From NCBI RefSeq assembly GCF_003144095.1, contig NZ_NSKH01000023.1:1059745-1100355 (forward strand): DNA of 40,611 nucleotides. The letters are read 5' to 3'. Under the pieces are notes generated by a model that saw only the letters and a list, made by a program, of their open reading frames with translations, was not told the DNA's origin and searched no databases. The position numbers and the translations under genes were made by a program. Below are positions 8,711-38,390 of the stretch, in pieces; position 1 is the stretch's first letter; each line of letters starts with the position of its first letter. The DNA comes from Streptomyces sp. ICBB 8177 (GTDB lineage Bacteria; Actinomycetota; Actinomycetes; Streptomycetales; Streptomycetaceae).

Positions 8711-8742
8711 ATGAGACAGCATTGTCTCATGCGGGTTACCAT
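8711..8742 (+). promoter_or_regulatory. Palindromic TetR operator and tetR promoter
   Basis: ATGAGACA-GCAT-TGTCTCAT (8711-8730) is a perfect 8-bp inverted repeat with a 4-nt centre, the usual geometry of a TetR-family operator. A further TGTCTCAT-like copy (CGTCTCAT) runs into the tetR start at 8743-8750. GAGACA (8713-8718) and TACCAT (8737-8742) are 18 nt apart and could serve as -35 and -10. The predicted start site then falls at the ATG at 8749, which has no RBS, suggesting a leaderless, self-repressed transcript. Confidence 0.6.
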
Positions 8743-8748
8743 CGTCTC

Positions 8749-9297
8749 ATGAGCTTCGATCGTGAGCAGGTCCTGCGGGACGCGGCCGCGCTGCTGACCC
8801 GGCGCGCCACGGCGTCGCTGGACGAAATCGCCCGCGCCGCCGGCGTCAGCCGGGCCACCCTGCACCGGCACTTCCCCGGCCGGGAGGCTCTGGTGCGGGC
8901 GCTGGGCGCGCTCGGCGTCGCGCAGACCGAGGAACGCCTCGACGCCGCGCGCATCGAGGAGGGCGACCCCGTCGAGGCGGTGCGCCGCCTGATCGAGGAG
9001 GCCATCCCGGTCTCCGGCTTCCTCGCCTTCCTCTACGGCGAGAACCAGCTCTACGACGACGCGGAGCTCAACGCGGGCTGGGCCCGCATCGACGAACGCG
9101 TCAGCGCGCTCTTCCACCGCGGTCAGGAGCAGGGACTCTTCCGCTACGACCTGACCCCCGCCTGGCTCTGCGAGGCGCTCTACGCACTGATCGCCGCCTC
9201 CGCCTGGTCGGTGCAGGACGGCAAGATGGCCCCGCGCGACTGCGCTCGGATGGTCGGCGACCTGCTGCTCGGCGGCATGCTGCGGGAGCGCTCATGA
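8749..9297 (+). CDS. TetR/AcrR family transcriptional regulator
   Basis: The 182-residue protein has an N-terminal TetR helix-turn-helix (about residues 8-50: LDEIARAAGVSRATLHRHFPG, split by the usual spacing) and a helical ligand-binding C-terminal domain. The ATG at 8749 is used because the frame upstream runs into the palindrome and starts there would be TTG. No Shine-Dalgarno is visible, and the transcript may be leaderless. The stop overlaps the ATG of the MFS exporter, so regulator and pump form one operon, and the protein most likely represses both through the operator at 8711-8730 until an inducer, perhaps a pump substrate, is bound. Confidence 0.9.
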   Translation: MSFDREQVLRDAAALLTRRATASLDEIARAAGVSRATLHRHFPGREALVRALGALGVAQTEERLDAARIEEGDPVEAVRRLIEEAIPVSGFLAFLYGENQLYDDAELNAGWARIDERVSALFHRGQEQGLFRYDLTPAWLCEALYALIAASAWSVQDGKMAPRDCARMVGDLLLGGMLRERS

Positions 9298-20560: not shown

Positions 20561-21010
20561 CCCGACTCGACGGCGAACCGGGTCAGCGGTGAACCCGCCG
20601 CTCGCGACGCAGAACCGGCCGCCCGGAAGGCTCGCTCCCGGACTGGCCTGTCAACGACCGTGCAGCGTACGTCTGTTCGGATGAAACCGGGGGCTCGGCA
20701 CACGATCGGGTGATCGCGCGGTAGGCTGGCGGACCGTCGTGCCGCGCGCCGGTGACCTCGCGATCCCTGCTGGGAGGTGGCGTGTTCTCGCTGGCGGCGG
20801 GCGCGGCGCCGGTGGGGGACGTGGCGCAGTCCACAGGTCCGGGAAGCCGAGTTGGGTGGCCACGGTGCGCGACCGGCCGGGACAATGAACGTCCCGGGGT
20901 GGTCGTGCCGCCTGCCACGCGTGCTCGTTCTTCCTTCGAGTGGCCTTGTGCCGCAGCCGCCGGCGCATCACGGGGCTGGAAGGAGCGACACCGATGGGCG
21001 AGGGGCACGC
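20561..21010 (+). other. 450-nt intergenic region before the BluB-CobT gene
   Basis: The region has a TAGGCT -10-like box at 20722-20727 and a GGAAGGAG-type purine run near 20980. The fragment GGGAAGCCG at about 20850 and CCTGCCACG at about 20912 superficially recall parts of a cobalamin riboswitch, but the GGTG and CCGC-ACTG core elements are missing. No protein-coding frame with Streptomyces bias was recognised, although the gene's own frame is open back to 20777. Confidence 0.3.
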
Positions 21011-24000
21011 ATGACTGACACCGGCCCGGTCCCCGGCGAGGGACTGCCGGGGAACGCAGGCGCAGAAGCGGTTCAGCAGCCGCACGCCGACCTGTCCGCG
21101 CAACCGGCCGGCACCCCGGCCGCGGCAGCCGGGTCGGGGCACGGCTGGAGCACCGACGCTTTCCTGGCCCCCGCGACGCCCGTCTTCGACTACCTCGACC
21201 AGCCGGAGGGCGTCGAGCCGCCGGTGGCCGCCGAGGACGACGACCTGCTGCTGATGCCCGCCCCGCAGGGTTCCTGGGGCGACCCGCAGCCGGTCCCGCC
21301 GCAGCCGCCGTTCCCGCAGCCGTCGGCCCCCGGGCAGGCCCAGGCACCGCAGCACGAGGCACCGGCCGCTGCGCAGGCGGTCGACACGGAGGAGGCCGTC
21401 GCGCCCGAGGCCGCCGTCGCGCAGCCCGGAAGCGGCCGGCCGGAGGCGGCGCAGGCAGAGCAGGTTCAGGCTGAGCCCGTTCAGGCTGAATCCGTTCACG
21501 CCGAGCCCGCTGAGGCCGGTCCCGTTCACGTCGATCCGGCTCAGGCCGATCCCGGTCACGGTGAGGCGCGGGCCGGGGCCGTGCCGCAGGAGGCGCTGCC
21601 CGCCGAGGGCGCCGTGCCGCAGGAGTCCGCCGACGCCGACTCCGCACGCATCGAGCCGGGTTCGCTGGACCTGGGCCACACCGGCCCCGGTCAGCCCGAA
21701 GCCGTCGAGGCGCTGCCCGACCCCGTGACGACCGGCGCCCAGCAGCCCGCCCAGGGCGCGGAGCAGGTGGCCGCCGCGCCGGTGGCCGGCGCGGACGGGC
21801 AGCCCGCGGCCGAGCCCGTCGCCGCCCCCGAGGCACCGGTGCAGGACGCGCAGGCCGCGCCGCCTGCCGGGCCCGCGCCGCTCGCCGAGCCCGTCCGGGA
21901 GAACGCCGCCGTGGACCCCGCCGCCGAGGCCGACCCCGCCGTCGCACCTGCGTCCCGCGTGCCCGCGCCTGGCGGCCCGGCGGGCTCCGCCGCCGGTCAG
22001 AACGGCCAGAACGGTCAGAACGGCGCGGTACGGCGGCCGTTGCACCTCGGTCCGCCCACCCCCGCCGCGCTGGGATCCGACTCGTCCGGCGGGGTGTCGG
22101 TGCGTTCGCTCGCCGACCGCGGCCCCACGCCGCCGCCCGTCGCGCCCACTCCGGTGCGCGACTCCGTCCCCGGCGACCCGACCACCGGACCCGAGTACCT
22201 CGACGTACCGGTGGACGAGACCGCCTCCATCCCGGCCCAGCAGAACGGCGAAGCGCCCGTGGCGGGCGGCCCCTGGGGCCCGACGCCGGCCGCTGCCGCC
22301 ACCGTGACGCCCGAGGCGCCCGCGCAGCCGCAGCCGCAGCCGGAAGCCGAGGCCCAGGACCCGCCCGAGGCGCAAGCGATCCCGCAGGCCGGGCGGCCGG
22401 TGGCGCCGGAGCGGCCTGAGGGGGCCCAGCAGCCCGAGGACGCCCAGCAGGCCGAACAGCCCGAGGCGGGGCCCGTGGTGGAGCCGGTCGCCGTACCGGT
22501 CGACGTCGCCGAGAGCCCGCGTGGCGGGCCGGCCGACGAGCCCGGGGCCCTGGCCGACCTCGACCGCGAGCCGGTGCGCGTGACGGTCGTCCCGGAGCCC
22601 CGGGCCGCCGAGCCGCAGGCCGAAGCCGTCCCCGTTCAGCCGGAGCGGGCCGAGACACCGGCGCAGGCCCCCGCCCCCGCTGACGACGCGACGCCAGCCG
22701 GTGCGACGCCCGCCGCCGACCAGGAGCCGTCGCCGCGGACGTCGGCCGTGGACACCGTTGCGGGCCCTGCCGTCGACACCGCGACGGACGCCGACGGTGA
22801 AGCCCCCGGGGAGACCTCCGGCAAGGCTGGGAGCGGTAGCGAGGGCGAAGCCGCCGCCACATCCGCCGCCGCGGGATACGACGAGGCCGTACGCGACGCC
22901 GTGCACAAGGTGATCCGCGAGCGCCGCGACATCCGCAACGGCTTCCGCCAGGACCCGATCCCGCACGAGGTGCTGCTGCGCGTGCTGGAGGCGGCGCACA
23001 CCGCGCCCAGCGTCGGCCACTCCCAGCCGTGGGACTTCGTGGTCATCCGCTCCGACAAGACCCGCGAGAAGATGCACGAACTGGCGATGCGTCAGCGTGA
23101 CGCGTACGCCAAGTCGCTGCCGAAGGCCCGCGCCAAGCAGTTCCGCGAGCTGAAGATCGAGGCGATCCTCGACACCCCGGTCAACATCGTGGTGACCGCG
23201 GACCCGACGCGCGGCGGCCGTCACACCCTCGGCCGCCACACCCAGCCGCAGATGGCCCCGTACAGCTCGGCGCTCGCGGTGGAGAACCTGTGGCTCGCCG
23301 CCCGCGCCGAAGGCCTCGGCGTCGGCTGGGTCAGCTTCTTCGACGAGCGCGAGATGGTCCGCGAACTGGGCCTGCCCGACCACCTGGAGGTCGTCGCCTA
23401 CCTGTGCGTGGGGTACGTGGACGAGTTCCCGGAGGACCCCGAACTGGTGCAGGCGGGCTGGTCCAAGCGCCGTCCGCTGGCCTGGGTGGTGCACGAGGAG
23501 GAGTACGGCAACCGCGCCCTTCCCGGCGAGGCACCGCACGACCTGCTGGACGAGACACTGCGCGGCATCCGCCCGCTGGACGCCAAGGCGCTCGGCGAGG
23601 CGTGGGAGCGGCAGAAGCGGATGACCAAGCCGTCGGGCGCGCTCGGCATGCTGGAGATCATCTCCGCGCAGCTGTGCGGTCTGTCCCGGCAGTGCCCGCC
23701 GCCCATCCCCGAGCCCGCCGCCGTCGCGATCTTCGCCGGTGACCACGGGGTGCACGCCCAGGGCGTCACCGCGTGGCCGCAGGAGGTCACCGGCCAGATG
23801 GTGGAGAACTTCCTCGCCGGGGGAGCGGTCTGCAACGCGTTCGCCAACCAGGTGGGCGCCGAGGTCTGCGTGATCGACGTCGGCGTCGCGTCCGAACTGC
23901 CCACCACGCCCGGCCTGCTGCCGCGCAAGGTGCGGCACGGCACCGGTGACTTCACCACCGGCCCGGCCATGACCCGCGAGGACGTGCTGCGGGCGATCGA

Positions 24001-24595
24001 GGTGGGCATCGAGACCGCCCGCGACCTGGTGGCCGCCGGCAACAAGGCGCTGCTCACCGGCGAGATGGGTATCGCCAACACCACCGCGTCCGCCGCGCTG
24101 ATCTCGGTCTACACCGGCGTCGACCCGGCCGAGGTCACCGGCCGCGGCACCGGCATCAACGACGAGATGCACGCCCGCAAGGTGGACGTGGTGCGCCGCG
24201 CCCTGGAGTTGCACAAGCCCGACCCCGCCGACCCCATCGGCGTCCTCGCGGCCATCGGCGGCCTGGAGCACGCGGCCATGGTCGGTCTGCTGCTCGGCGG
24301 CGCGTCGCTGCGCACCCCGGTCATCCTGGACGGCGTGAGCGCCGGGGCCGCCGCGCTGGTCGCCCGGGCCGTCGCTCCCGAGGCACTGGCCGCCTGCATC
24401 GCGGGTCACCGCAGCGCGGAGCCCGGCCACGTGGCGGCCCTGACCAAGCTCGGTCTGCGTCCGCTGGTCGACCTCGACCTGAGGCTGGGCGAGGGCACCG
24501 GTGCCCTGCTCGCGCTGCCGCTGGTGCAGAGCGCGGCTCGGGTGATGCACGAGGTGGCCACGTTCGACTCGGCGGGCGTCACCGAGAAGGGCTGA
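21011..24595 (+). CDS. cobT: BluB-CobT fusion with about 620-residue low-complexity N-terminus
   Basis: A 1194-residue protein. Residues 1 to about 620 are Pro/Ala/Glu/Gln-rich and probably disordered, with islands such as EDDDLLLMP and RRPLHLGPPTPAAL (about 340-355). Residues about 622-830 are a BluB nitroreductase-like domain (RDIRNGFRQDPIP, PWDFVVIRSD) that makes 5,6-dimethylbenzimidazole from FMNH2. Residues about 843-1194 are CobT, which attaches this base to nicotinate mononucleotide to give alpha-ribazole phosphate; the catalytic Glu lies in LRLGEGTGA (Glu1161). The fusion places two consecutive lower-ligand steps in one chain. The ATG at 21011 follows GAGGGG; ATG 20885 is an in-frame alternative. 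Confidence 0.9.
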   Translation: MTDTGPVPGEGLPGNAGAEAVQQPHADLSAQPAGTPAAAAGSGHGWSTDAFLAPATPVFDYLDQPEGVEPPVAAEDDDLLLMPAPQGSWGDPQPVPPQPPFPQPSAPGQAQAPQHEAPAAAQAVDTEEAVAPEAAVAQPGSGRPEAAQAEQVQAEPVQAESVHAEPAEAGPVHVDPAQADPGHGEARAGAVPQEALPAEGAVPQESADADSARIEPGSLDLGHTGPGQPEAVEALPDPVTTGAQQPAQGAEQVAAAPVAGADGQPAAEPVAAPEAPVQDAQAAPPAGPAPLAEPVRENAAVDPAAEADPAVAPASRVPAPGGPAGSAAGQNGQNGQNGAVRRPLHLGPPTPAALGSDSSGGVSVRSLADRGPTPPPVAPTPVRDSVPGDPTTGPEYLDVPVDETASIPAQQNGEAPVAGGPWGPTPAAAATVTPEAPAQPQPQPEAEAQDPPEAQAIPQAGRPVAPERPEGAQQPEDAQQAEQPEAGPVVEPVAVPVDVAESPRGGPADEPGALADLDREPVRVTVVPEPRAAEPQAEAVPVQPERAETPAQAPAPADDATPAGATPAADQEPSPRTSAVDTVAGPAVDTATDADGEAPGETSGKAGSGSEGEAAATSAAAGYDEAVRDAVHKVIRERRDIRNGFRQDPIPHEVLLRVLEAAHTAPSVGHSQPWDFVVIRSDKTREKMHELAMRQRDAYAKSLPKARAKQFRELKIEAILDTPVNIVVTADPTRGGRHTLGRHTQPQMAPYSSALAVENLWLAARAEGLGVGWVSFFDEREMVRELGLPDHLEVVAYLCVGYVDEFPEDPELVQAGWSKRRPLAWVVHEEEYGNRALPGEAPHDLLDETLRGIRPLDAKALGEAWERQKRMTKPSGALGMLEIISAQLCGLSRQCPPPIPEPAAVAIFAGDHGVHAQGVTAWPQEVTGQMVENFLAGGAVCNAFANQVGAEVCVIDVGVASELPTTPGLLPRKVRHGTGDFTTGPAMTREDVLRAIEVGIETARDLVAAGNKALLTGEMGIANTTASAALISVYTGVDPAEVTGRGTGINDEMHARKVDVVRRALELHKPDPADPIGVLAAIGGLEHAAMVGLLLGGASLRTPVILDGVSAGAAALVARAVAPEALAACIAGHRSAEPGHVAALTKLGLRPLVDLDLRLGEGTGALLALPLVQSAARVMHEVATFDSAGVTEKG
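21464..21568 (+). repeat. Seven imperfect 15-bp tandem repeats inside the BluB-CobT gene
   Basis: Units begin GTTCAGGCTGAGCCC, GTTCAGGCTGAATCC, GTTCACGCCGAGCCC and continue with more divergence. They encode pentapeptides of the form V-Q/H-A-E/D-P (VQAEP, VQAES, VHAEP, AEAGP, VHVDP, AQADP, GHGEA). The block lies at residues about 152-186 of the disordered N-terminus and probably varies in copy number between strains. Confidence 0.8.
21995..22021 (+). repeat. Three 9-bp repeats (GQN) in the BluB-CobT gene
   Basis: GGTCAGAAC, GGCCAGAAC and GGTCAGAAC encode GQNGQNGQN just before the conserved-looking RRPLHLGPPTP island. It is a short microrepeat in low-complexity sequence. Confidence 0.8.
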
Positions 24596-26956: not shown

Positions 26957-28084
26957 TCACCCCGCCGCGGGCAGGTTCACCAGGGCCGCCAGGCGGGTGC
27001 GGTGGTGGCCCGGGGTGCCCAGGGCGAGTTCGCAGGACTTGGCGCGCTTCAGGTGGAGGTGGGCGGGATGCTCCCACGTCATGCCGATGCCCGCGTGCAA
27101 CTGGACGCACTCCTCGGCCGCGTGGACCGCCGCCGTCGAGCAGTACGCCTGGGCGACGGCGACCGCCACCGCCGCGTCGGGGCTGCCGGTCGCCAGCGCG
27201 TCCGCCGCCGCCCTCGCCGCGGCCCGCGCCGAGACGACCTCCAGCCACACGTCGGCCAGCCGGTGCTTCAGCGCCTGGAACGAGCCCACGACACGCCCGA
27301 ACTGCCGCCGCTCGCCCAGGTATCGCATCGTCTCGTCCAGGCACCACTGCGCGACGCCGACCTGCTCCGACGCCAGCAGCCCCGCCCCCGCCAGCAGCGC
27401 ACCCTCCAGTGCGGAGGCCCCCGGGCCCGCCAGGCGGTGCGCCGTCGCGCCGTCCACGGTCACGTCGGCGATCGGGCGGGTCAGGTCGAGCGGGACGGCG
27501 GGAGTGACGCGCATCCCGGGCGTGTCGGACGTCAGCGCGTACAGCCCGGGCCCCTCCGGGCCGGTCGCCGGGACCACCAGGACGTCCGCCACCGCCGCGT
27601 CCGCGACGCTGGTCACCGTTCCGCTCAACACCCCGTCGGCATCGGCGCGTACGGCCTGCGGGAACGACACGCCCGGCCCGTACGTCAACGGCACCGCCAG
27701 CGCTCCCACCGACGCGCCGGAGGCCAACGAGTCCAGCAGACGCGCGACGCGTTCGTCCGCCGTGTCGCAGCCGAGCAGCGCAGTGGTCGCCAGCACCGCG
27801 CTGCCCAGGAACGGCACGGGCGCGACCGCCCCGCCCAGCTCCTCCAGTACGACCGCCGCCTCCCGCGCCGAGGCGCCCGCGCCACCCAGCTTCTCCGGCA
27901 CCAGCAGCCCGGCGAGACCGGAACCGGCCGCCAGCGTGCGCCACAGCCCGAGGTCGTACGGCTCGTCGCTCTCACAGCGCGCCAGCACCGCCGACGCCGG
28001 GCAGCGGTCGGTCAGCACGTCCCGCACCGTCGCGCGCAGATCGTCCTCGACGTCGGAGTAGAGCAGGTCGGGGGTGGCGCTCAT
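26957..28084 (-). CDS. Acyl-CoA dehydrogenase family protein (partner subunit)
   Basis: A 375-residue acyl-CoA dehydrogenase, shorter and more diverged than its upstream partner. An N-terminal helical domain (SDVEDDLRATVRDVL) precedes a middle domain and a C-terminal four-helix domain (QFGRVVGSFQALKHRLADVW, then CVQLHAGIGMTWEHPAHLHLKRA). Its ATG at 28084 overlaps the stop of the partner (ATGA), so the two are made together. In actinobacteria such adjacent pairs, for example in sterol side-chain degradation, form alpha2beta2 heterotetramers in which one subunit is catalytically incomplete. A heteromeric enzyme is therefore inferred. The acyl substrate is unknown. Confidence 0.88.
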   Translation of the reverse strand: MSATPDLLYSDVEDDLRATVRDVLTDRCPASAVLARCESDEPYDLGLWRTLAAGSGLAGLLVPEKLGGAGASAREAAVVLEELGGAVAPVPFLGSAVLATTALLGCDTADERVARLLDSLASGASVGALAVPLTYGPGVSFPQAVRADADGVLSGTVTSVADAAVADVLVVPATGPEGPGLYALTSDTPGMRVTPAVPLDLTRPIADVTVDGATAHRLAGPGASALEGALLAGAGLLASEQVGVAQWCLDETMRYLGERRQFGRVVGSFQALKHRLADVWLEVVSARAAARAAADALATGSPDAAVAVAVAQAYCSTAAVHAAEECVQLHAGIGMTWEHPAHLHLKRAKSCELALGTPGHHRTRLAALVNLPAAG

Positions 28085-29298: not shown

Positions 29299-29347
29299 AC
29301 GCCGCGTCCTCCCAGACCCGCCCCGGGGGCGGGCCGTCCGTGAGCTA

Positions 29348-29361
29348 AGCAAGCGCTTGGT
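29348..29361. promoter_or_regulatory. Putative TetR-type (KstR2-like) operator
   Basis: AGCAAGCGCTTGGT fits the 14-bp consensus AnCAAGnnCTTGnT described for KstR2 of mycobacteria, with a perfect 10-bp core CAAGCGCTTG. It is placed 50-63 nt upstream of the acyl-CoA dehydrogenase start, where a repressor would block transcription. No regulator gene is adjacent. Other TetR proteins of fatty-acid genes use related sites, so the identity of the repressor is open. Confidence 0.6.
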
Positions 29362-29431
29362 AAGTTACCGAACGCGGCGGGAGCGCGCCAGCCCCTGGCG
29401 TGATGTGCGGGGATGGCGGGGGAGGTGTCGA

Positions 29432-32033: not shown

Positions 32034-32203
32034 ACTCAAGCGTCACAGGTCCGGGAGAGCGGCCCGGACCGGGGACAAACCGGTAACAGACCCCGTGGGG
32101 ACGGGGGGCGCACGGACGGCACGGGGCCCGGACATCTGGAGGTGTCCGGGCCCCGAGACTTTCCGCCTCCGGCCGGCGGAGCCGCCCCCGAGGTCGGTCC
32201 CGC

Positions 32204-32610
32204 CCCTGGGGGTGCGGGTGGCGGAGCCTCCGCTTGGCGAGGCGGAGCCGAGCAGAAACGACAAGGGCGGGGTGGCTCGCGTTTTCCGCGAGCACACTCC
32301 GCCCTCGACTGCGAGCACACTCCGCCCTCGACTGCGAGCGGACTCCGTCCTCGACGTCGCGCGGCCCTGGGGGTGCGGGTGGCGGAGCCTCCGCTTGGCG
32401 AGGGGGAGCCGAGCAGAAACGACGAGGGTGGGGTGGCTCGCGTTTTCCGCGAGCACACTCCGCCCTCGATCGCGAGCGGACTCCGTCCTCGACGTCGCGC
32501 GGCCCTGGGGGTGCGGGTGGCGGAGCCCCCGCTTGGCGAGGCGGAGCCGAGCAGAAACGACGAGGGCGGGGTGGCTCGCGTTTTCCGCGAGCACACTCCG
32601 CCCTCGACCT
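32204..32610 (-). repeat. Tandem array of three tRNA-linked terminator-like repeats
   Basis: Three near-identical units start at 32204, 32365 and 32503 (161, 138 and about 107 bp). Each, read leftward from the tRNA genes, holds an arm CGAGGGCGGAGTG, an inner stem CTCGCG-GAAAA-CGCGAG, the closing arm CCACCCCGCCCTCG, then TCGTTTCTGCTCGGCTCCGC. Unit 1 also has an extra 23-bp duplication (about 32292-32337). The same family follows both tRNA-Val(CAC) genes at 38276 and 39006. Each unit can fold into a large hairpin followed by T-rich sequence, so they act plausibly as stacked terminators. Protein frames read through them are artefacts of the repeat. Confidence 0.85.
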
Positions 32611-32612
32611 TG

Positions 32613-32684
32613 TGGACGATACTGGGATTGAACCAGTGACCTCTTCCGTGTCAGGGAAGCGCTCTCCCGCTGAGCTAATCGTCC
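32613..32684 (-). tRNA. tRNA-Val(GAC), copy 3 of operon
   Basis: A 72-nt cloverleaf with acceptor GGACGAT/ATCGTCC, D-arm GCTCAGCGGGAGAGC, anticodon loop CTGACAC (GAC, reads GUC/GUU) and T-arm GGTTCAATCC. CCA is not encoded. It is the last tRNA before the repeat array. Confidence 0.97.
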
Positions 32685-32715
32685 GGGACGCACACCCCGC
32701 GAGGGGCGTGCCGCG

Positions 32716-32787
32716 TGCGCGATACTGGGATTGAACCAGTGACCTCTTCCGTGTCAGGGAAGCGCTCTCCCGCTGAGCTAATCGCGC
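32716..32787 (-). tRNA. tRNA-Val(GAC), copy 2 of operon
   Basis: The body is identical to the neighbouring copies, but the acceptor is GCGCGAT/ATCGCGC: both strands have changed at two pairs, keeping pairing. The anticodon is GAC. Confidence 0.97.
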
Positions 32788-32830
32788 GGGATGGTGCCGG
32801 GGGCACCGTTCGGGACCCTCACGGATCCAG

Positions 32831-32902
32831 TGGACGATACTGGGATTGAACCAGTGACCTCTTCCGTGTCAGGGAAGCGCTCTCCCGCTGAGCTAATCGT
32901 CC
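32831..32902 (-). tRNA. tRNA-Val(GAC), copy 1 of operon
   Basis: Identical over 72 nt to the copy at 32613-32684, with acceptor GGACGAT/ATCGTCC and anticodon GAC. It starts 1 nt after the end of tRNA-Cys in transcription order. Confidence 0.97.
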
Positions 32903-32903
32903 G

Positions 32904-32974
32904 AGGTGGAGACGGGATTTGAACCCGTGTAGACGGCTTTGCAGGCCGTTGCCTCGCCTCTCGGCCACTCCACC
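32904..32974 (-). tRNA. tRNA-Cys(GCA)
   Basis: A 71-nt cloverleaf: acceptor GGTGGAG/CTCCACC, anticodon loop CTGCAAA (GCA), T-arm GGTTCAAATCC. It is the second gene of the leftward operon Gly-Cys-Val-Val-Val. No CCA is encoded. Confidence 0.97.
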
Positions 32975-32999
32975 AACGGGGATCACAGGACCCCCATCG

Positions 33000-33072
33000 A
33001 GCGGACGACGGGATTCGAACCCGCGACCCTCACCTTGGCAAGGTGATGCTCTACCAACTGAGCCACGTCCGC
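33000..33072 (-). tRNA. tRNA-Gly(GCC)
   Basis: A 73-nt cloverleaf: acceptor GCGGACG/CGTCCGC, D-arm GCTCAGTTGGTAGAGC, anticodon loop TTGCCAA (GCC), T-arm GGTTCGAATCC. It is the first gene of the tRNA operon, about 40 nt after the predicted start site. Confidence 0.97.
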
Positions 33073-38197: not shown

Positions 38198-38269
38198 GGG
38201 CGATTAGCTCAGCGGAAGAGCGCTTCGTTCACACCGAAGAGGTCACTGGTTCGAACCCAGTATCGCCCA
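38198..38269 (+). tRNA. tRNA-Val(CAC), first copy
   Basis: A 72-nt cloverleaf: acceptor GGGCGAT/ATCGCCC, anticodon loop TTCACAC (CAC, reads GUG), T-arm GGTTCGAACCC. It is followed 7 nt later by a perfect 21-bp terminator hairpin. Confidence 0.97.
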
Positions 38270-38275
38270 CCGGGT

Positions 38276-38390
38276 CGAGGGCGGAGTGGGCTCGCGGAAA
38301 CGCGAGCCCACTCCGCCCTCGGTGTCTCCCGGCTCGGCTCCGGCTCGCGGTGGGGCTCCGCCGCCCACACCCCCGTCTCGTGGTCGAGGC
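38276..38390 (+). repeat. tRNA-linked repeat / terminator, single copy
   Basis: The first part is a perfect 21-bp stem (38276-38296 and 38301-38321, arm CGAGGGCGGAGTGGGCTCGC plus G) closed by a GAAA tetraloop, an extremely stable terminator. It is followed by CCGGCTCGGCTCCGGCTCGC and a GGTGGGGC/GCCGCCCACACCCCC tail, the same layout as the units at 32204-32610 and 39006-39240. Confidence 0.85.

Follow-up and report, generated by a model that had tools for sequence, protein, structure and literature searches.

In our opinion, the palindrome that precedes two adjacent acyl-CoA dehydrogenase genes in the window (the whole stretch of 40,611 nucleotides analysed here) very probably belongs not to the steroid repressor KstR2 but to a different, apparently unstudied repressor of the TetR type, here called TetR-A, which would repress a small beta-oxidation regulon and be released by an acyl-CoA. 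Its sequence and its conservation mark the palindrome as a genuine regulatory site, which has exactly the look of a steroid repressor's operator, and its assignment as a TetR-type operator, kept upstream of orthologous gene pairs in part of one family, is supported. What the analysis offers for the Streptomycetaceae is a regulator open to test, four putative targets and a dehydrogenase that may be heterotetrameric.

The 14-mer AGCAAGCGCTTGGT at 29348-29361 fits the KstR2 consensus AnCAAGnnCTTGnT exactly, which confirms what had been read from the sequence alone, and it is the only match to this consensus in the window; shuffles contain 0.02 matches on average, and 2 of 100 reach one. It is part of a 20-bp near-palindrome, CTAAGCAAGCGCTTGGTAAG (Table 1), located 46 nt upstream of the ATG (29298) of subunit 1, a minus-strand gene. 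A scan for a sigma-70 type promoter around the operator recognised none. The genome-wide scan for the motif, proposed together with that first reading, gave a divided answer. In the genome that contains the window (G000) the loose 14-mer occurs at three distinct places versus four for the reversed control, which is chance level and no enrichment. When up to three mismatches are allowed, CTAAGCAAGCGCTTGGTAAG is found at two places in the whole genome (0 and 1 mismatch) and its control at none, so that the extended site is rare.

Table 1. The dehydrogenase pair, its operator, the candidate regulator and like sites. Positions without a prefix are those of the window; the others lie in G000.
Feature	Position	Strand	Score	Remarks
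Acyl-CoA dehydrogenase subunit 1, 405 aa	28081..29298	-		ATG 29298-29296; acyl-CoA dehydrogenase domains
Acyl-CoA dehydrogenase subunit 2, 375 aa	26957..28084	-		acyl-CoA dehydrogenase domains
ATGA start/stop overlap coupling subunits 1 and 2	28081..28084	-		read in the sequence
20-bp near-palindromic operator CTAAGCAAGCGCTTGGTAAG, site before the window pair	29345..29364	-	20/20	CTTACCAAGCGCTTGCTTAG when read toward the operon; includes AGCAAGCGCTTGGT
Site before acyl-CoA dehydrogenase/TesB thioesterase operon	C22:392120		19/20	CTNAGCAAGCGCTT at C22:392126
Site just before the TetR-A gene	C17		15/20	
Site before the MaoC gene near TetR-A	C17		16/20	
CTNAGCAAGCGCTT inside an unrelated called gene	C11:2074101			
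TetR-A, 207 aa	C17:810117-810740			TetR_N and TetR_C_24; behind an acyl-CoA dehydrogenase gene, beside a MaoC gene

Downstream of the operator, the two acyl-CoA dehydrogenase genes are indeed coupled by an ATGA overlap (28081-28084), and the unequal conservation that the sequence-only reading ascribed to them is confirmed as well. Subunit 1 is matched in 190 of 249 same-family genomes; in 20 loci that we picked among the best of these 190, favouring genera close to G000, identity is 79-98% for subunit 1 and 60-94% for subunit 2, the latter being lower in every locus. At the two positions that we take to be catalytic in acyl-CoA dehydrogenases, alignment with three other dehydrogenases of G000 places Glu242 (in NERV) and Gly in subunit 1; in the same alignment, subunit 2 has Gly and Leu there and no Glu at either position. 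A SEPGAGSD segment is retained in subunit 1 (residues 127-134), and ERRQFG is retained in subunit 2 (residues 258-263). The PDB matches of both subunits are led by 6wy8/6wy9 and 4x28, and the nearest NCBIfam model of subunit 2 is IpdE2, at 199 bits and thus below the cut-off of 450.

Alpha2beta2 acyl-CoA dehydrogenases are defined (PMC8399759) by one catalytic Glu per heterodimer and by FAD at the dimer interface. The window pair has adjacent, coupled genes and the catalytic Glu in one subunit alone, and its possession of the residue pattern of these enzymes is accordingly a supported reading of the two sequences; an alpha2beta2 quaternary structure is what we infer from it. The known enzymes of this kind, ChsE4-ChsE5 (4x28), Tcur3481-Tcur3483 (6wy8/6wy9) and IpdE1-IpdE2, resemble the pair in having adjacent genes and a Glu in one subunit, whereas the window pair forms a distinct lineage and lies outside any steroid cluster here. 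Of the likeness to heterotetrameric steroid-degrading enzymes proposed earlier, the part that survives is the residue pattern; the pair is not IpdE1/IpdE2, and a steroid role is unsupported.

The operator is conserved in some members of the family and absent from others. In 13 of the 20 same-family loci (L075 to L087, stretches of 4.0-4.8 kb) a site of at least 16/20 precedes the pair, in two of them with a MaoC gene in between. Three further loci, L117, L122 and L130 (genomes G101, G194 and G033), have the pair inside a longer operon with the site at the operon head (17/20, 18/20 and 15/20, respectively), which makes 16 of 20 in total. Around the pair of the other four (G233, G010, G012 and G241) no site reaches 15/20, even though these genomes have TetR-A; in G233, G010 and G241, which belong to g10, the pair comes after a quinone-reductase-like gene. 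When the 13 promoters are aligned, identity per column averages 0.94 within the site versus 0.54 in the flanks, a contrast inflated by an alignment anchored on the site. Genes of the relatives were called with a simple ORF caller, so that their starts are approximate, and names given without a family scan were assigned by eye.

On a wider scale, the core CTNAGCAAGCGCTT occurs 162 times in 81 same-family genomes versus 17 times for its reversed control (136 versus 17 when G027 is set aside); 61 of the 81 genomes have at least one copy, and 15 have a control site. The core is absent from 20 of the 81, 18 of which belong to genera g2, g3 and g5, and 19 of these 20 still match subunit 1. Hence only some members of the family associate the site with the pair. 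A scan of named genomes, in which the best 80 of 587 were kept, gave 80 loci, 77 of them titled Streptomyces, Prauserella or Amycolatopsis; six of the 80 have, in the stretch examined, a site scoring 16/20 or more, and 20 permuted consensus strings gave none. Among 20 loci chosen from a search of the phylum, not one has a site within 200 bp of subunit 1, the best score being 12/20. Conservation of the motif upstream of orthologous pairs, whose absence the sequence-only reading had named as a refutation, is thus seen in 16 of the 20 loci picked close to G000; the motif is missing in several other genera.

In genus g10 we observed a common variant of the site, CATGCTAAGCAGTTGCTTAG, near TetR-A in three of five genomes (L154, L155 and L161), and the usual core in a fourth (L153). 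In two of the three genomes with the variant, G010 and G233, nothing near the pair reaches 15/20; the third, G067, has a weak site of just that score (L129). A drift of the operator in this genus is possible.

The candidate regulator was recognised through its linkage to the pair. In L119 and L120 the site, a MaoC gene, subunit 1, subunit 2 and a TetR-A homologue of about 205 aa follow one another in one apparent operon, and in L117, L122 and L307 a TetR-A homologue and two reductase-like genes, behind a site of their own, lie a few kb from the operon of the pair, which has its own site in the same cluster. A profile of four such linked TetRs, searched in 30 genomes from genera other than g2, g3 and g5, finds TetR-A at E 1e-25 in 23 of them: 23 of 24 same-family genomes and none of six others. 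At 17 of the 25 loci matched, CTNAGCAAGCGCTT lies within about 1.5 kb. The eight loci without it comprise L139 and L140, where the site stands at the head of a shared operon, L154, L155 and L161 with CATGCTAAGCAGTTGCTTAG, and L151, L162 and L163 with neither. The sites at the pair and at TetR-A have one common core, which is in part a matter of construction, the sites having been selected by score or by core.

The TetR-A of G000 itself is not next to the pair, and its identity to the pair-linked TetRs of other genera is just 51-55%; orthology is therefore likely but short of proven. Between the MaoC protein of G000 and its counterparts in L119 and L120, identity amounts to 63-65%, and for this reason the one-operon arrangement in those loci and the split arrangement in G000 look like one unit. 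The closest solved relative of TetR-A is PDB 3him, which we believe to be from Rhodococcus RHA1 (residues 18-206, 152 bits). Among the open-licence papers searched, we recognised none that describes TetR-A or this operator in Streptomyces, although one may exist, and none of the operators of seven streptomycete TetRs described in PMC3511530 has the AGCAAGCGCTTGGT word.

In G000, CTNAGCAAGCGCTT occurs five times and its control does not occur at all. The earlier suggestion that the pair is an isolated member of a regulon has to be given up, since three more like sites stand at acyl-CoA genes of the same genome (Table 1). Those at TetR-A and MaoC are weaker than the site of the pair (15/20 and 16/20). 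In G101, a thiolase and an acyl-CoA synthetase are also grouped around a site. The content of the regulon consists of general beta-oxidation parts, namely MaoC, dehydrogenases and a thioesterase. The same operator thus accompanies both the regulator gene and the pair, and in some genomes the two are linked; this does not hold for every genome.

The following scheme would account for these arrangements. A dimer of TetR-A would most likely sit on the palindrome, 46 nt away from the start codon, and block transcription of the two-gene operon; it would also repress its own gene, the MaoC-type dehydratase and the acyl-CoA dehydrogenase/TesB operon. An acyl-CoA that signals the presence of substrate would bind TetR-A, and TetR-A would then leave the operator. 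The two subunits may assemble into an alpha2beta2 enzyme, to which subunit 1 would contribute the catalytic Glu while subunit 2 would help to hold FAD, and this enzyme would presumably perform the first step of beta-oxidation on an acyl-CoA. What is observed is the site with its conservation and its linkage to TetR-A, the genes around it and the residues of the two subunits; binding, repression, ligand, subunit assembly and substrate are all predicted.

One competitor of this scheme takes up the sequence-only reading: a KstR2 repressor would bind the operator, and the substrate of the pair would be a steroid (HIP-type) acyl-CoA. AGCAAGCGCTTGGT is letter for letter the site in the kstR2 promoter of all four mycobacterium-like genomes (f3/g19, a label inferred from their KstR2 locus), each of which has three clustered sites, and the best NCBIfam model of subunit 2 is that of an IpdE2. 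These four genomes, our positive control, have the 14-mer at 4 places versus 4, 5 and 4 for the reversed pattern in three of them and at 10 versus 0 in the fourth, so that the genome-wide count says little and the evidence lies in the three clustered sites. The EMSA-positive site of M. tuberculosis Rv3557c/Rv3558 (PMC3068626) also has a core whose reverse complement is AGCAAGCGCTTGGT. However, G000 has no KstR2 orthologue, a finding that had been named beforehand as one that would overturn the KstR2 operator claim. Our query, the protein beside the middle site in G321 (365 bits to KstR2 4w97), finds as its best match in G000 a protein of 29% identity (72 bits, E 2e-19). The scores of KstR2 itself are 373-426 bits in three mycobacterium-like genomes, and two members of the family reach 195-198 bits (50%). 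KstR2 is thereby ruled out as the regulator in G000, identical motif notwithstanding, barring a gene in unassembled sequence, and the stated completeness of the genome is 99.99.

The steroid part of that proposal fares no better. No protein of G000 exceeds the cut-off for IpdE2, whereas the positive control, the IpdE2 of G321, scores 583 against 450. In KstR2 loci a CoA-transferase-like gene occupies what we call the IpdA position; we assume that it is IpdA, and an NCBIfam scan of it returned nothing at E 1e-30. With the gene of the G006 KstR2 cluster as query, there is no match at E 1e-10 in G000 or in its genus sister, while seven of 16 same-family genomes have one at about E 6e-99 or better and nine are without (one of them with a weak match at 6e-11). 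The site before the pair occurs both with and without this gene, and so it is kept in family members that do not have it. The pair itself is also of another kind. The IpdE1/IpdE2-type genes of G321 and G629 are 36-38% identical to the window pair (in G321, 36% for the IpdE1-type protein and 38% for IpdE2), and both genomes contain elsewhere a closer pair, with 57% and 43-44% (57% and 43% in G321); pairs of 69% and 57-60% are found in G343 and G395. Because G321 holds IpdE1/IpdE2 and, elsewhere, a pair closer to that of the window, the window pair represents a separate lineage, and the IpdE2 score (199 versus 450) together with this co-occurrence rules out membership in IpdE1/IpdE2. Both the gene names FadE30 to FadE33 and our labelling of the gene next to the first KstR2 site as IpdE1 are presumptive. 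With IpdE2 below its cut-off, the IpdA-position gene unmatched and the pair not IpdE1/IpdE2, we withdraw the steroid role, and we regard the KstR2 reading as a whole as very unlikely. What the KstR2 regulon of mycobacteria and rhodococci (PMC3068626) shares with our proposal is a TetR repressor, an identical 14-mer at kstR2, autoregulation and acyl-CoA dehydrogenases among the targets; it differs in that KstR2 is 29% identical to TetR-A and that its HIP and steroid ring genes are in one cluster, absent in G000 as far as tested.

If a TetR other than KstR2 reads the site, it need not be TetR-A. A SACE_7040-type TetR (C22:391445-392047) adjoins the second-best site of the genome, the one of 19/20 at C22:392120, scores above the NCBIfam cut-off for SACE_7040 (282 versus 250), and might regulate both operons. 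We find this unlikely: the divergent promoter toward its carboxylase operon has, by eye, a different imperfect inverted repeat, GTTAACGCTCGCTAAC, and among relatives it is TetR-A that accompanies the CAAGCGCTTG-type site, a protein unlike the SACE_7040-type TetR in sequence (36% over 88 residues). There is, of course, no shortage of other TetRs, as at least 84 TetR_N places were found in G000, 83 over the cut-off, when 150 of 196 candidates were scored. One of them, at C17:819022-819621 downstream of an acyl-CoA-synthetase-like gene, is the best KstR2 match mentioned above (29%). It is nevertheless quite unlikely that such a gene reads the site, given that no site of at least 15/20 lies near it in the 20 kb read and that the neighbourhoods read show no linkage between such a gene and the pair. 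Finally, the unenriched loose 14-mer (3 versus 4) would fit a chance palindrome without function, yet both position and letters are conserved across several genera and the extended site is rare and in G000 stands mostly at acyl-CoA genes, so that chance is hardly conceivable. TetR-A remains in our opinion the regulator to be preferred.

At the locus of the SACE_7040-type TetR (L137, 15270-16260; G000:C22), the gene lies between a leucine-catabolism-like operon (carboxylase, lyase and dehydrogenase, by eye), whose promoter has GTTAACGCTCGCTAAC, and the acyl-CoA dehydrogenase/TesB operon, whose promoter has the site of the TetR-A type. The window contains a TetR gene of its own (8722-9297), immediately ahead of what is by eye an MFS-transporter-like gene and with only weak matches to TetR models; it was considered and set aside.

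The question why a KstR2-type site should occur without KstR2 deserves some attention. The AGCAAGCGCTTGGT word is used by the KstR2 sites of mycobacteria and rhodococci (PMC3068626) and by the AtuR and RdmA sites of Pseudomonas as well (PMC9973270). Of the AtuR 13-mers AGCAAGCGCTTGG and CCAAGCGCTTGCT, each is the reverse complement of the other, and one copy of AGCAAGCGCTTGG lies in the window. Since the operators of KstR2, AtuR and RdmA share it, the word does not name its regulator. As described in PMC9973270, AtuR and RdmA (acyclic terpenes and DSF) are TetRs of unusual acyl catabolism with the same palindrome, as in our proposal, but they have two copies of the word per promoter, belong to other bacteria and act on other targets.

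Genomes G006 and G078 are instructive here, as they hold both KstR2 (50%) and TetR-A. An exact AnCAAGnnCTTGnT is absent from their 20-kb KstR2 regions (L299 8156; L300), and the best-scoring match in that of G006 is AACAAGTGTTTGGT. It is tempting to speculate, and we do so tentatively, that AGCAAGCGCTTGGT is read by at least three groups of TetRs (KstR2 for steroids, AtuR/RdmA for terpenes and DSF, and TetR-A for acyl-CoA in Streptomycetaceae), and that the KstR2 operators of G006 and G078 have drifted off the word. If true, the operator would track unusual acyl-CoA catabolism rather than one regulator, and the drift would insulate the two regulons from each other. The proposed regulon would be a new one of a known type; the shared operator word is the more interesting point. 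A KstR2-type motif can suggest steroid catabolism, and here an exact match is found in a genome without KstR2, where a regulon governed by a TetR of its own accounts for it better. This is a warning that steroid genes should not be named by motif alone.

Several observations stand apart from the above. G027 has 26 copies of CTNAGCAAGCGCTT; of the 19 that were read (L301-L311), nine are in called genes, two look regulon-like (at the cluster of the pair in L307) and eight are between other genes, three of these eight being 30 bp apart in L305. Perhaps a palindromic repeat with the same word as the operator is scattered through this genome. In the window itself, three copies of a 138-nt repeat (72%, the reference and 96%) at 32150-32586 adjoin five tRNA genes at 32612-33072 (three Val-GAC, Cys and Gly). 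Pieces of 54 nt occur again at 38276 (67%), 39006 and 39117 (96%), near two tRNA-Val (CAC) genes at 38198 and 38928. Further, one long frame at about 20777-24595 combines, by eye, a very long low-complexity N-terminus rich in Pro, Ala and Glu with nitroreductase-like and CobT-like sequence, and the frames of relatives that share its C-terminal end differ in length.
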